Assembly (NCBI RefSeq): GCF_003589925.1
Contig: NZ_CP032382.1
Coordinates: 6,014,001-6,078,000, forward strand
Length of the DNA stretch: 64,000 nt
Source of the DNA: Chryseolinea soli
GTDB taxonomy: Bacteria; Bacteroidota; Bacteroidia; Cytophagales; Cyclobacteriaceae
Reading direction: 5' to 3'
How positions within the stretch are numbered: position 1 is the stretch's first letter; every line of letters starts with the position of its first letter. The translations under genes were made by a program, and so were the position numbers. Under the pieces are notes generated by a model. That model ran no database searches, was not told the origin of the DNA, and saw only the letters and a program-made list of their open reading frames with translations. This document shows, one piece after another, positions 49,029-53,544 of this stretch.

Positions 49029-50426
49029 ATGCTTTTAAAAATATCAACGACACACCATCCCGCTACGGACCTCAGCTACTTGCTCCACAAACATCCGGAA
49101 AAGCTGCAAGCCATAGAACTGTCGAATGGCAAAGCACATGTTTTTTATCCGGAAGCCAGCGAGGCAAAATGCTCGGTCGCCCTGTTGTTGGATATTGATC
49201 CCATCGGTCTGGTCAGAAATTCGGGCAGGAATGGAGACGACTCATTTTCGTTGGGACACTATGTGAATGACAGGCCCTACGTGGCATCATCCTTTATGAG
49301 CGTAGCATTATCGAAGGCATTTTCAACCGCCATGAATGGAACTTGCAACAAGCGCCCGGAACTGGTTGATCAGGTCATGCCTTTTGAAATAGAGATCTCT
49401 GTTTTGCCGGCCCCCAAAGGGGGCGAGGTTTTGATCAGAAGACTTTTTGAACCGCTGGGCTATCGCATAGATCTGGAAAGACATTTGTTGGATAACAAAT
49501 TCACCACATGGGGAATGAGTAGATATTTTACGCTCAAACTCACAGGAACTTTCAAGTTGAAGGATTTGCTTTCGCATTTATATGTGCTGATCCCAGCACT
49601 CGACAATGAAAAGCACTATTGGGTGGGCCAGCATGAAGTAGAAAAACTCCTGGAAAAAGGTAAGGGCTGGCTGAAAGATCATCCTGAAAAAGAGCAAATC
49701 ACAACGCGCTATTTAAAAGGTATCGGTGGATTAACGCGCAATGCCCTCAATAGGCTACTGGAAGGCGATGAACAGGGTGAGCATAGCGAATCCGGCGACG
49801 AACAAATTGATACAGTCAAAGAAACTCTGCATTATAAACGACTGAAGGTTGTTTTGGAAGAGCTTGTCCGTTCAGACGCCAAGACCGTTGTTGACCTGGG
49901 ATGCGGCGAGGGGAAGCTCTTGAGAATGCTTTTGAAAGAAAAACAGTTTCAAAAGATCCTGGGTGTCGATGTTGCCTATCGGGAATTAGAAAAGGCCAAT
50001 GACCGTCTCCGCATTCAGGAGATGGCCCCGAAGCAGAAGGAGAGAATTGAATTAAGACAAGGGGCATTGACCTATCGCGACAAAAGACTTCAGGGGGTTG
50101 ATGCTGCCGCCATCGTGGAAGTCATCGAACACCTCGATCCTAATCGATTGACGGCCTTTGAACGGGTAGTCTTTGAATTTGCGCAACCCAAGATGGTCGT
50201 TCTCACCACACCAAACCGAGAGTACAACGCTCTTTTTGAGACCCTGGACGCAGGTCAAATGCGACACGCGGATCATCGTTTTGAATGGACGAGAAATGAG
50301 TTTGAATCGTGGGCTCATCGCGTGGCGGAAAGGAATGGGTACACGGTAGTGATCAAGCCAATCGGAGAAGAAGACGAAAAAGTTGGAGCCCCTTCTCAAA
50401 TGGCAGTTTTTCAATTAATAGTTTAA
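49029..50426 (+). CDS. hen1: Hen1 RNA 3'-terminal 2'-O-methyltransferase
   Basis: 465 residues, the length of bacterial Hen1. The N-terminal domain (about 1-235, starting LLKISTTHHPATDLSYLLHKHP) is the part that in characterised homologues activates the Pnkp ligase. The C-terminal methyltransferase has SAM motif VVDLGCGEGKLL (287-298) and the metal-binding set Glu364, Glu367 and His368 in VEVIEHLD plus His416 in RHADHRFEW, equivalent to the manganese ligands of Clostridium Hen1. It methylates the 2'-OH at the 3' end of a cleaved RNA before ligation, so that the repaired RNA cannot be cut again at that site. First gene of a three-gene operon, 12 bases before the exonuclease. Confidence 0.96.
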   Translation: MLLKISTTHHPATDLSYLLHKHPEKLQAIELSNGKAHVFYPEASEAKCSVALLLDIDPIGLVRNSGRNGDDSFSLGHYVNDRPYVASSFMSVALSKAFSTAMNGTCNKRPELVDQVMPFEIEISVLPAPKGGEVLIRRLFEPLGYRIDLERHLLDNKFTTWGMSRYFTLKLTGTFKLKDLLSHLYVLIPALDNEKHYWVGQHEVEKLLEKGKGWLKDHPEKEQITTRYLKGIGGLTRNALNRLLEGDEQGEHSESGDEQIDTVKETLHYKRLKVVLEELVRSDAKTVVDLGCGEGKLLRMLLKEKQFQKILGVDVAYRELEKANDRLRIQEMAPKQKERIELRQGALTYRDKRLQGVDAAAIVEVIEHLDPNRLTAFERVVFEFAQPKMVVLTTPNREYNALFETLDAGQMRHADHRFEWTRNEFESWAHRVAERNGYTVVIKPIGEEDEKVGAPSQMAVFQLIV

Positions 50427-50438
50427 AGAATACAATTT

Positions 50439-50969
50439 ATGAGTTACGTAGTAGTAGATGTTGAATCAGACGGACCTATTCCGAATAAATATTCAATGGT
50501 TTGCTTTGGAGCGGTCATCCTGGATCCGTCATTGACCAATACATTTTATGGAAAAGTGAAGCCCATCTCCCAGGAGTGGGAAGCAGAGGCGTTGGCGATA
50601 AGCGGTTTTACAAGAGCAGAGCACGAAGCTTTTGATGATCCGAAAATAGTGATGGATCGTTTCGCAGAATGGCTGAAGACACATGTAAAGGGAAGACCCA
50701 TTTTTATATCCGACAACCTGGCGTATGACTGGCAGTGGATAAACTATTATTTCCATTATTACGGAAATGGGAACCCCTTTGGCTTCAGTGGAAGGCGAAT
50801 TGGGGATCTGTATTGCGGGATGAAAATGGACACCGGGCTAAATCAGGAGTGGAAGAAAAAATACAGAAAAACCAACCACGACCACAACCCGGTTAACGAT
50901 GTCATCGGCAATGCAGAAGCATTATTAGAAATGAAAAAATTGGGATTGAAAATACCATCAAATGGTTAA
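50439..50969 (+). CDS. DEDDh 3'-5' exonuclease within the RNA-repair operon
   Basis: 176 residues. Acidic motif I is VVDVESDG (Asp7, Glu9), motif II DNLAYDWQW (Asn93, Asp97), motif III HNPVND (His149, Asp154), so all DEDDh residues are present. It resembles the RNase T/DnaQ exonuclease family (3'-5' exoribonuclease). The gene is 12 bases after hen1 and overlaps pnkp by eight bases, implying joint translation. A role in trimming 3' ends before repair is an inference from context; a DNA substrate cannot be excluded. Confidence 0.92.
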   Translation: MSYVVVDVESDGPIPNKYSMVCFGAVILDPSLTNTFYGKVKPISQEWEAEALAISGFTRAEHEAFDDPKIVMDRFAEWLKTHVKGRPIFISDNLAYDWQWINYYFHYYGNGNPFGFSGRRIGDLYCGMKMDTGLNQEWKKKYRKTNHDHNPVNDVIGNAEALLEMKKLGLKIPSNG

Positions 50970-53544
50970 TACCGAACTGAAAATACCAGAACTCTCTCTC
51001 GTTGTACTGATTGGAATTTCCGGTTCAGGCAAATCTTCTTTTGCTAAAAAGCATTTCCGGGAAACGGAGATCCTTTCATCCGATAAATGCAGAGGCATCG
51101 TGTCGGACGATGAAAATAACCAAGAAGCCACCGATGACGCCTTCGAACTACTGCACTACATCGCTGCGAAACGACTCAAGAACGGTTTGCTCACCGTGGT
51201 GGATGCAACCAACGTTCAGGCCGAGGCAAGGAAGCCGTTGGTTCAATTGGCGAAGGACTATCACTGCCTCCCGGTGGCTATAGTCCTGGATGTTCCGGAG
51301 AAAGTATGCGATGAGCGAAATAAAAACAGGCCTGACAGAAACTTCGGGAGCCACGTCACGCGACAACAGCGCGTTCAACTCAGACGATCCATCAAAAAAC
51401 TCAAGGGTGAGGGTTTTCGACACATCTTTGTGCTTGATTCTGTAGCAAAAATTGATGCGGTCGCTACCATAAACCGAGATAAGCTCTATAACGATAAGAA
51501 AGACATCAAAGGGCCCTTTGATATTATTGGTGACATTCATGGTTGCTTCACGGAATTGACAGAACTTCTGACCAACCTTGGATATGTGATAAACCCTGCC
51601 GATGAAAGCCAGGGAAATTTTGGCTTCAAAGTTGAGACACCAGAAGACAGGAAGGTCATTTTCCTGGGTGACCTGGTTGACAGGGGACCTGATTCTCCCT
51701 CCGTACTCAAGCTCGTGATGAGTATGGTAAACTCCGGCGCCGCTTATTGTGTTCCCGGGAACCACGACATGAAGTTGCAGAGGTACCTGAACGGGAACGA
51801 TGTTCAGCTGAAACACGGTCTCGCTTTAACCGTTGAGCAATTGAAAGGCGAAAGCGATCACTTCTTGAATCAAGTGAAAGACTTTCTTTATGGACTGGTG
51901 AGCCACTACGTATTTGATGGCGGCCGACTGGTTGTTGCCCATGCGGGCTTGAAAGAAGAAATGCACGGCAGGGGAAGCGGAGCCGTGCGATCGTTTTGCA
52001 TGTTTGGTGAAACGACTGGCGAAACCGATGAGTTCGGGTTGCCGGTCCGTTTCAATTGGGCATCAGAATACAGGGGAAAGGCAATGGTTGTCTATGGTCA
52101 TACACCCGTGCCGGTAGCACAGTGGTTGAACCGAACGATCGATATCGACACGGGTTGCGTATTCGGTGGCAAGCTAACAGCCTTACGGTATCCTGAAGAA
52201 GAACTTGTTTCTGTTGATGCAAAACAAGTATACATGGAGCCGGCCCGACCGCTCAACTGGAAAGCGAATGAACCACTCAACCAGCAGCACGAACACGACG
52301 ATGTATTGGATATCGACGATGTCACTGGCAAACGGATCATCAGTACACGGCTGAGAAACAATGTTACCGTGCGCGAGGAGAACTCCATTGCAGCATTGGA
52401 AGTGATGAGCCGCTTTGCGCTAAATCCAAAGTGGTTGATCTACCTGCCTCCAACCATGTCGCCTTCCGAGACAAGTGAATTGGACGGTTACCTCGAGCAT
52501 CCGATGGAAGCCTTCAAGTATTTCAAAAGCCAGGGGGTAGAAAAGGTCGTGTGCGAAGAAAAGCACATGGGCTCACGGGCGATCCTGGTCATTTGTAAGG
52601 ATGCGGAATCGGTTCGCAGCAGGTTTGGGATTGAGCATGAAGGTATCGGAGTCTGCTACACCCGAACGGGGAGAAATTTCTTTACCGACCCGGAACTGGA
52701 GATTCAATTTATGGATCGGATCAACAAAGCGTTGACAAAGGCAGACGTCTGGGAAAGATTCCAAACCGATTGGGTTTGTTTGGATGCAGAATTGATGCCC
52801 TGGTCTGCCAAAGCACAGGCCCTGTTGAAGGATCAATATGCTTCGGTGGGCGCGGCTGCTTCTGCTGCGTTATGTAACGTTGCTGATGTCTTAAACCAGA
52901 CCGCGAATAGAAATGTTGAAGGTGTTACGGAACTGTTGCAAAAGTACTCGACTAAAAAAGAGATGATTGCCGACTACACGAACGCCTACAGAAACTATTG
53001 CTGGCCGGTAAATGGAGTGGATGATTACAAGCTGGCCCCATTTCACCTGCTGGCGACGGAGGGCGCCGTACATGTTGATAAAGACCATGCCTGGCACATG
53101 CGCGAAATCGGCTTGATTTGCGAACAGGATTCTCAACTACTTTTGGCGACACCGCATAAGATCATTGACGTTAACAATGAAGCTGACGTTCATGAAGTAG
53201 TGAACTGGTGGACTGACCTGACTGAAAAAGGAGGAGAGGGTATGGTGGTAAAACCCTATGACTTTATTGCGAGCGGCAAGAAAGGGCTTGTTCAACCGGC
53301 CATCAAGTGCAGGGGCAAAGAATACCTTCGCATCATCTATGGACCGGAGTATTCGGCTTCTGAAAATATGATCCGGTTCAAGAGCAGGGGACTCTCTGGT
53401 AAAAGGTCCCTTGCCTTAAGGGAATTTGCTTTAGGTGTAGAATCATTAGAAAGGTTTGTAAGAAGAGAACCATTACGAAAAGTACATGAATGTGTATTCG
53501 GCGTGCTGGCTTTGGAAAGTGAGGAAATTGACCCGAGATTATAG
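50962..53544 (+). CDS. pnkp: Polynucleotide kinase-phosphatase-ligase
   Basis: 860 residues, matching the size of the bacterial enzyme. Kinase domain (1-170): P-loop GISGSGKSS (18-26), catalytic Asp41, and lid Arg residues near 119-126. Phosphatase (about 185-420): DIHGC (191-195), GDLVDRGPD (236-244), GNHD (266-269), His327 in VAHAG and GHTP (379-382), the binuclear metallophosphoesterase set. Adenylyltransferase/ligase (about 480-860): nucleophile Lys534 in EEKHMGSR, LDAELMPW (607-614), EGMVVKP (759-765) and Lys782. Thus it has kinase, 2',3'-cyclic phosphatase and ligase steps for sealing broken RNA. Its ATG sits inside the exonuclease stop region. The ligase is known to need Hen1. Confidence 0.97.
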   Translation: MVNTELKIPELSLVVLIGISGSGKSSFAKKHFRETEILSSDKCRGIVSDDENNQEATDDAFELLHYIAAKRLKNGLLTVVDATNVQAEARKPLVQLAKDYHCLPVAIVLDVPEKVCDERNKNRPDRNFGSHVTRQQRVQLRRSIKKLKGEGFRHIFVLDSVAKIDAVATINRDKLYNDKKDIKGPFDIIGDIHGCFTELTELLTNLGYVINPADESQGNFGFKVETPEDRKVIFLGDLVDRGPDSPSVLKLVMSMVNSGAAYCVPGNHDMKLQRYLNGNDVQLKHGLALTVEQLKGESDHFLNQVKDFLYGLVSHYVFDGGRLVVAHAGLKEEMHGRGSGAVRSFCMFGETTGETDEFGLPVRFNWASEYRGKAMVVYGHTPVPVAQWLNRTIDIDTGCVFGGKLTALRYPEEELVSVDAKQVYMEPARPLNWKANEPLNQQHEHDDVLDIDDVTGKRIISTRLRNNVTVREENSIAALEVMSRFALNPKWLIYLPPTMSPSETSELDGYLEHPMEAFKYFKSQGVEKVVCEEKHMGSRAILVICKDAESVRSRFGIEHEGIGVCYTRTGRNFFTDPELEIQFMDRINKALTKADVWERFQTDWVCLDAELMPWSAKAQALLKDQYASVGAAASAALCNVADVLNQTANRNVEGVTELLQKYSTKKEMIADYTNAYRNYCWPVNGVDDYKLAPFHLLATEGAVHVDKDHAWHMREIGLICEQDSQLLLATPHKIIDVNNEADVHEVVNWWTDLTEKGGEGMVVKPYDFIASGKKGLVQPAIKCRGKEYLRIIYGPEYSASENMIRFKSRGLSGKRSLALREFALGVESLERFVRREPLRKVHECVFGVLALESEEIDPRL

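Follow-up and report, generated by a model that had tools for sequence, protein, structure and literature searches.

Repair of RNA by the Hen1-Pnkp pair is the closest described system to the locus considered here, a putative operon of Chryseolinea soli in which a gene for a predicted Cap18-type DEDDh 3'-5' exonuclease lies between hen1 and pnkp, within a 64,000-nucleotide stretch of contig NZ_CP032382.1 (positions 6,014,001 to 6,078,000; hereafter the window). According to the sections of PMC4411300 consulted, Pnkp heals both ends of ribotoxin-cut RNA and Hen1, which activates the Pnkp ligase via its N-terminal domain, methylates the 2'-OH at the 3' end before the ligase seals the break; the natural substrates of the pair are unknown. 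The Hen1-Pnkp complex (TIGR04074/TIGR04075; PDB 4drf and 4e6n, with domains of both partners) is matched in the window by two full-length proteins with all domains and motifs, encoded by neighbouring genes on the same strand, and differs from the window operon in the third gene. The Pnkp1-Rnl-Hen1 complex of Capnocytophaga gingivalis (PDB 4xrp) shares the heal, methylate and seal chemistry (same sections of PMC4411300), but its ligase is a separate protein and its hen1 is distant from the other two genes, whereas the ligase here is fused in Pnkp and hen1 is nearby, which sets the operon apart from that complex.

Accessory RNA-end enzymes beside hen1-pnkp are also a feature of RlaP-containing RNA-repair operons. 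Two annotated nucleotidyltransferase genes lie between hen1 and pnkp on Deinococcus gobiensis plasmid P2, and two genes annotated as nucleotidyltransferases lie past pnkp on an Asticcacaulis plasmid. The predicted function of RlaP is to put back, ahead of ligation, nucleotides that RNA ends have lost (passages of PMC7824862, citing Burroughs and Aravind 2016). The window differs from such operons in that its added gene is an exonuclease and its RlaP pair is not beside hen1-pnkp.

Based on the co-occurrence of the exonuclease with RlaP, a second and separate linkage to hen1-pnkp, and intact active-site residues, we propose, with a probability of roughly 0.42, that the Hen1-Pnkp operon recruited a stand-alone Cap18-type 3'-5' exonuclease, which would trim 3' ends together with RlaP. 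Among the literature matches listed, no open-licence title or abstract opening dealt with an exonuclease in a Hen1-Pnkp operon, which is weak evidence of absence.

The repair pair and the exonuclease gene

By sequence, both Hen1 and Pnkp belong clearly to the known bacterial Hen1-Pnkp RNA-repair pair, each scoring about twofold above the cut-off of its equivalog family (Hen1, 712.5 bits against TIGR04074, cut-off 340; Pnkp, 1446 bits against TIGR04075, cut-off 750). Hen1 consists of an N-terminal Hen1_L domain (PF12623, residues 1-243, 367.6 bits) followed by a methyltransferase domain, Pnkp matches PF16542, PF13671 and PF00149 with the ligase domain (PF16542) at residues 477-855, and Hen1_L, AAA_33, Metallophos and PNKP_ligase all score above their Pfam cut-offs. 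Motif letters read from the sequence are GISGSGKS (residue 18), GDIHGC (190), FLGDLVDRG (234), GNHD (266), GHTP (379), EKHMGSR (533), EGMVVKP (759) and IKCRG (781) in Pnkp, and EVIEH and RHADHRF in Hen1. We take the two Hen1 motifs to be metal ligands and presume active-site roles for the motifs of both proteins. Solved relatives are PDB 4dqz and 3jwh for Hen1 and 4drf, 4j6o and 4gp6 for Pnkp. A preliminary description of this DNA had called Hen1 intact with its metal ligands, Pnkp complete with kinase, phosphatase and ligase motifs, and the two a repair-and-methylation pair; the motif letters, family models and solved homologues bear this out, and the spacing it gave for the three genes proved exact to the base in the open reading frames (Table 1). 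The core pair is ordinary, and the novelty of the locus is the added exonuclease gene.

The product of that gene is, by residues, sequence and fold, a Cap18-type DEDDh exonuclease with a predicted activity. Searched by sequence, the PDB gave one match up to an E-value of 0.1, namely 7t2s (E 1.3e-24), which is Cap18, the 3'-5' exonuclease of a cyclic oligonucleotide-based antiphage signalling system (CBASS) operon in Escherichia coli upec-117, and Foldseek returned the same structure as the best match to its AlphaFold model (pLDDT 90.5; TM 0.81, 34% identity), followed by RNase T. The protein also matches PADLOC family PDLC00753 (E 5.2e-34) and scores at the cut-off of PF16473, and the catalytic DEDDh residues D7, E9, D97, H149 and D154 are invariant in 13 aligned exonucleases, the window copy included. 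Although it resembles Cap18 in fold and catalytic residues, the window copy lies in an RNA-repair operon with no CBASS genes seen nearby, whereas Cap18 sits in a CBASS operon (as described in part of PMC9122588). A role as CBASS effector here was considered and rejected, Pfam having found neither a CD-NTase nor a partner gene in the operon proteins and nine neighbours, and no further defence domain in those neighbours (PADLOC was not run on the neighbours).

A scan of genome contigs with the exonuclease as query returned three loci. Homologues numbered 4566, and of the 120 listed P0001 (89% identical) alone ends in the same -NG, the residues encoded in the pnkp overlap in the window; a single metagenomic sister may therefore share the gene arrangement.

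Table 1. Features of the putative hen1-exonuclease-pnkp operon, in positions of the window
Feature	Positions	Strand	Details
hen1	49029-50426	+	465 aa; open reading frame without internal stop
Hen1 motif EVIEH	50118-50132	+	residue 364; also in Hen1 of PDB 3jwh (alignment)
Hen1 motif RHADHRF	from 50262	+	residue 412
Gap between hen1 and exonuclease gene	50427-50438	+	12 bases
Cap18-type DEDDh 3'-5' exonuclease gene (predicted), between hen1 and pnkp	50439-50969	+	176 aa; no internal stop
Overlap of exonuclease gene and pnkp	50962-50969	+	8 bases; exonuclease stop codon within the first pnkp codons
pnkp	50962-53544	+	860 aa; single chain with a kinase, a phosphatase and an RNA ligase domain; no internal stop

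A second linkage and the association with RlaP

The exonuclease gene was probably inserted, since in the closest operon (G146, L065; Hen1 85.6% and Pnkp 87.1% identical to the window proteins) hen1 itself directly overlaps pnkp by 8 bases, and the junction lacks an exonuclease gene. Probably the simplest account of the two arrangements is that the gene went in cleanly, with the 8-base coupling to pnkp preserved. The G146 operon has an RlaP pair about 0.9 kb past pnkp. Measured against it, hen1 and pnkp have ratios of non-synonymous to synonymous substitution rates (dN/dS) of about 0.04 and 0.01, rough values with synonymous sites saturated.

A second linkage is found in genus g305, where the cluster runs RlaP, RlaP, hen1, pnkp, exonuclease and a 128-aa protein, with the exonuclease gene 19 bases past pnkp. 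Both the exonuclease and the RlaP pair are present in all four genomes sampled, and dN/dS of the exonuclease within the genus is low (0.07 and 0.10 for two pairs). A maximum-likelihood tree was built from 84 exonuclease rows, which included 40 of the 120 proteins listed and 20 viral loci out of 80 and omitted one broken copy (G757). The window exonuclease groups there with P0001 and then, among others, with the G523 copy; the g305 exonucleases form a separate branch with full support, the bootstrap being not fully settled. The starred branches of this tree force two changes of linkage, which gives two separate linkages to hen1-pnkp, one in the window and one in g305. The small protein of 126-130 aa (L226-L229 in g305; L064 in G523) directly follows the exonuclease in g305 and lies upstream of it, one gene apart, in G523; it had no Pfam, PADLOC or NCBIfam match (PADLOC was run on one copy), and the window genome holds a copy at C1:1781285, unlinked to the operon.

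Genome by genome, the exonuclease tracks RlaP more than Hen1, and RlaP explains the co-occurrence of exonuclease and Hen1. Across an order sample of 291 genomes, Hen1 was detected in 69, a clear exonuclease (at least 48% identity) in 25 and both in 13, against 5.9 expected (Fisher p 0.0012; by genus, 10 against 4.4, p 0.0018). Seven of 32 genomes with an exonuclease match were dropped from the co-occurrence counts (G743, G792, G794, G827, G848, G867 and G876; identities of 26-32%, or of 61% across 36 residues). RlaP (PF10127) occurs in 100 of the 291 genomes, among them 22 of the 25 with exonuclease (8.6 expected, p 1e-8), and in 14 of 16 exonuclease genera (7.2 expected among 116 genera, p 2e-4). 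Exonuclease genomes without Hen1 carry it in 10 of 12 cases (2.0 expected, p 3e-7), as do 63 of the 69 Hen1 genomes, and where RlaP is lacking Hen1 was present in one of three exonuclease genomes (0.1 expected, p 0.09). The HSDR_N restriction domain, searched as a control in 80 genomes (24 with exonuclease, 56 without), showed an odds ratio of 1.8 (p 0.17) for strong matches, a cut of about E 1e-15 that was set after the matches had been seen, and RlaP in the same genomes gave 14.8 (p 4e-6). For RlaP the odds ratio was 8.6 (p 7e-4) in the 62 of these genomes of at least 3.4 Mb, and permutation inside genome-size classes gave p 0.001. A trim-and-rebuild step would predict just such a pairing of exonuclease and nucleotide-adding enzyme.

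The RlaP pair of the window genome (two matches) lies at C1:1716580-1717700 (1.717 Mb), 4.35 Mb from the operon, and at 25 of the 75 hen1-pnkp loci, the G146 operon included, RlaP is present in the region retrieved around the pair. The whole set of exonuclease, RlaP, Hen1 and Pnkp occupies separate loci in the window genome and one cluster in g305, intact in one of the four genomes.

The hen1-pnkp junction, flanks and mobile copies

Junctions were compared in 87 regions around hen1 or pnkp, window included, of which 86 hold Hen1 and 75 have both genes on one strand; the junction counts leave out the one region without Hen1 and the 11 without a same-strand Pnkp, several of which (of 86 with hen1) come from contig ends or a partial hen1. 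Among the 75 loci, two are broken, hen1 and pnkp are less than 300 bases apart in 44, and in the remaining 29 they are separated by at least 300 bases, with inserted genes of at least 100 residues on the same strand only (9), the opposite strand only (13) or both (7), so that 20 have at least one opposite-strand gene. This contrasts with the statement, in the portion of PMC4411300 consulted, that pnkp and hen1 always share one operon. In the window the two genes are 535 bases apart on the same strand, with a single co-directional, tightly packed gene between them, an arrangement typical of an operon.

The same place in a member of the window's own family (G462; L076, 5797-6798) is filled on the same strand by a DUF1016/YhcG PDDEXK nuclease gene (PADLOC PDC-S02) that overlaps both hen1 and pnkp. 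Small same-strand proteins with no family above cut-off occupy the junction in G490 (L067), G543 (L073) and G441 (L074); by eye they have a hydrophobic N-terminal stretch and a membrane-anchored look, and the one at L074 may be split in two frames. Loci of genus g7 (such as L139-L166) often have hen1 and pnkp 0.6 to 5.4 kb apart with at least one opposite-strand gene between, and the pair need therefore not be co-transcribed there.

The operon corresponds to C1:6063029-6067541 in genome coordinates. Upstream, a DUF2264 gene ends 262 bases before hen1, and downstream a lipocalin-like gene converges with pnkp. Promoter-like sites (10 against 6.4 in shuffles) and terminator-like sites (4 against 5.5) were not far from shuffled sequence, and a search of the window gave no tRNA and no Rfam family.

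Relatives of the exonuclease are encoded in 199 stretches of viral contigs, at 54-75% identity in the 80 that were kept, and some of these contigs (L242-L321) are hundreds of kilobases long. Co-travelling of the exonuclease with hen1-pnkp in phages was considered and rejected, since Hen1 matched nothing in the phage collection at E 1e-20 and, at E 1e-4, the stretches fetched for the 80 retained viral loci contained neither hen1 nor pnkp. With one extra phage record, 81 loci were available, of which two have RlaP and 13 at least three tRNA genes, in a count that left three loci unparsed and misses loci with exactly one tRNA. The recurrent neighbour families at viral copies, which were listed and not annotated, included none recognised by eye as an RNA-repair gene. 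On plasmids, eight of 19 Hen1-bearing records were inspected and no annotated exonuclease was seen beside hen1 or pnkp, in a gene table that is incomplete. Plasmid pSR-1 of Skermanella rosea (L236) has hen1-pnkp a few genes from another annotated RNA-repair set, made up of an RtcB-family RNA ligase and prfH.

Proposed end trimming and alternative explanations

Trimming of RNA ends by the exonuclease, raised as a possibility in the preliminary description, is favoured by its co-occurrence with RlaP. Before methylation, the exonuclease would resect a damaged or over-digested RNA 3' end, which the RlaP nucleotidyltransferases, as predicted in the literature, could rebuild; methylation by Hen1 may then halt further resection, as the chemistry of the 3' ribose suggests, and protect the repaired joint. 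In a wider form of this proposal, which we consider rather unlikely, the Cap18-type exonuclease and RlaP would make up a trim-and-rebuild module from which ends pass to Hen1-Pnkp to be methylated and sealed, constituting an RNA-end resection pathway.

Several observations weigh against the proposed recruitment for trimming. The order hen1-exonuclease-pnkp occurs in none of the 74 other loci with both genes. By the preliminary description's own yardstick, a gene order conserved nowhere else would count against its reading, and for the genomes sampled this is literally the outcome; its three-gene unit has partial support from the exonuclease family directly past pnkp in all four g305 genomes, three of which have a cluster with a broken gene. 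Only G768 is intact there. The exonuclease is frameshifted in G757 (L127), and pnkp of G801 (L133) appears to carry a frameshift close to its start, being matched by tblastn in two pieces of differing frame and having an open frame of just 784 residues. G721 (L175/L227) has lost most of hen1 and pnkp to a deletion and keeps open frames for the RlaP pair, the exonuclease and the small gene downstream. The g305 linkage appears to be decaying. A family sample of 245 genomes contains Hen1 in 18, exonuclease in five and both in three (G000, G523 and G563), adjacent only in the source genome G000, and adjacency holds in five of the 13 order genomes with both (G000 and the four of g305), the other eight having exonuclease and Hen1 on different contigs, so that the exonuclease is mostly stand-alone. 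Within the set of genomes that carry RlaP, the exonuclease shows no association with Hen1 (12 with both, 13.9 expected). Genome size itself predicts the exonuclease, the HSDR_N control comes nearer to significance when all matches are counted (odds ratio 4.0, p 0.055), and the co-occurrence tests correct for shared ancestry only roughly. Lastly, one source terms Cap18 a DNA exonuclease (part of PMC11208441), while a review has it degrading single-stranded DNA or RNA (part of PMC10419184).

One alternative is that hen1-pnkp has an insertion-tolerant junction at which the exonuclease gene landed with no functional tie to repair, an account we hold to be doubtful but serious. Its main strength is that inserts are common at this junction, so that an insertion there is not special in itself: more than a third of loci are separated by other genes, often on the opposite strand, and single genes such as that of the DUF1016/YhcG nuclease occupy the same place in relatives. 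The many viral relatives of the exonuclease, the G+C content of its gene (42.7%, against 47.0% and 48.5% for its neighbours hen1 and pnkp) and the decay in g305 also fit a chance insertion, which would explain less readily why a second, separate linkage arose in g305 and why the exonuclease is associated with RlaP and not with strong HSDR_N matches. Alternatively, the exonuclease may degrade 3' ends of RNA, or of phage DNA, that Hen1 has left unmethylated, and so serve clearance or defence rather than trimming. The 'Effector' class to which PADLOC assigns this exonuclease and the CBASS setting of Cap18 are consistent with such surveillance, as is the fact that Hen1 modifies the very 3' ribose first met by a 3'-5' exonuclease. 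However, we regard it as improbable, given the lack of defence domains in the nine neighbouring proteins scanned with Pfam, the unchanged phage protection with catalytic-dead Cap18 in the single system tested (according to part of PMC9122588), and the closer tie, genome by genome, of the exonuclease to RlaP, for which rebuilding is predicted, than to Hen1.

Recruitment of the exonuclease for 3'-end trimming would bear on what the Hen1-Pnkp pair encounters in the cell. That a nuclease has become linked to hen1-pnkp on at least two occasions, and follows an enzyme predicted to add nucleotides, points to RNA ends that reach the pair in a damaged or shortened state and require processing. It also gives Cap18-type exonucleases a possible role beyond CBASS. 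If the resection pathway were true, RNAs with lost or damaged nucleotides at the cut would still be restorable.

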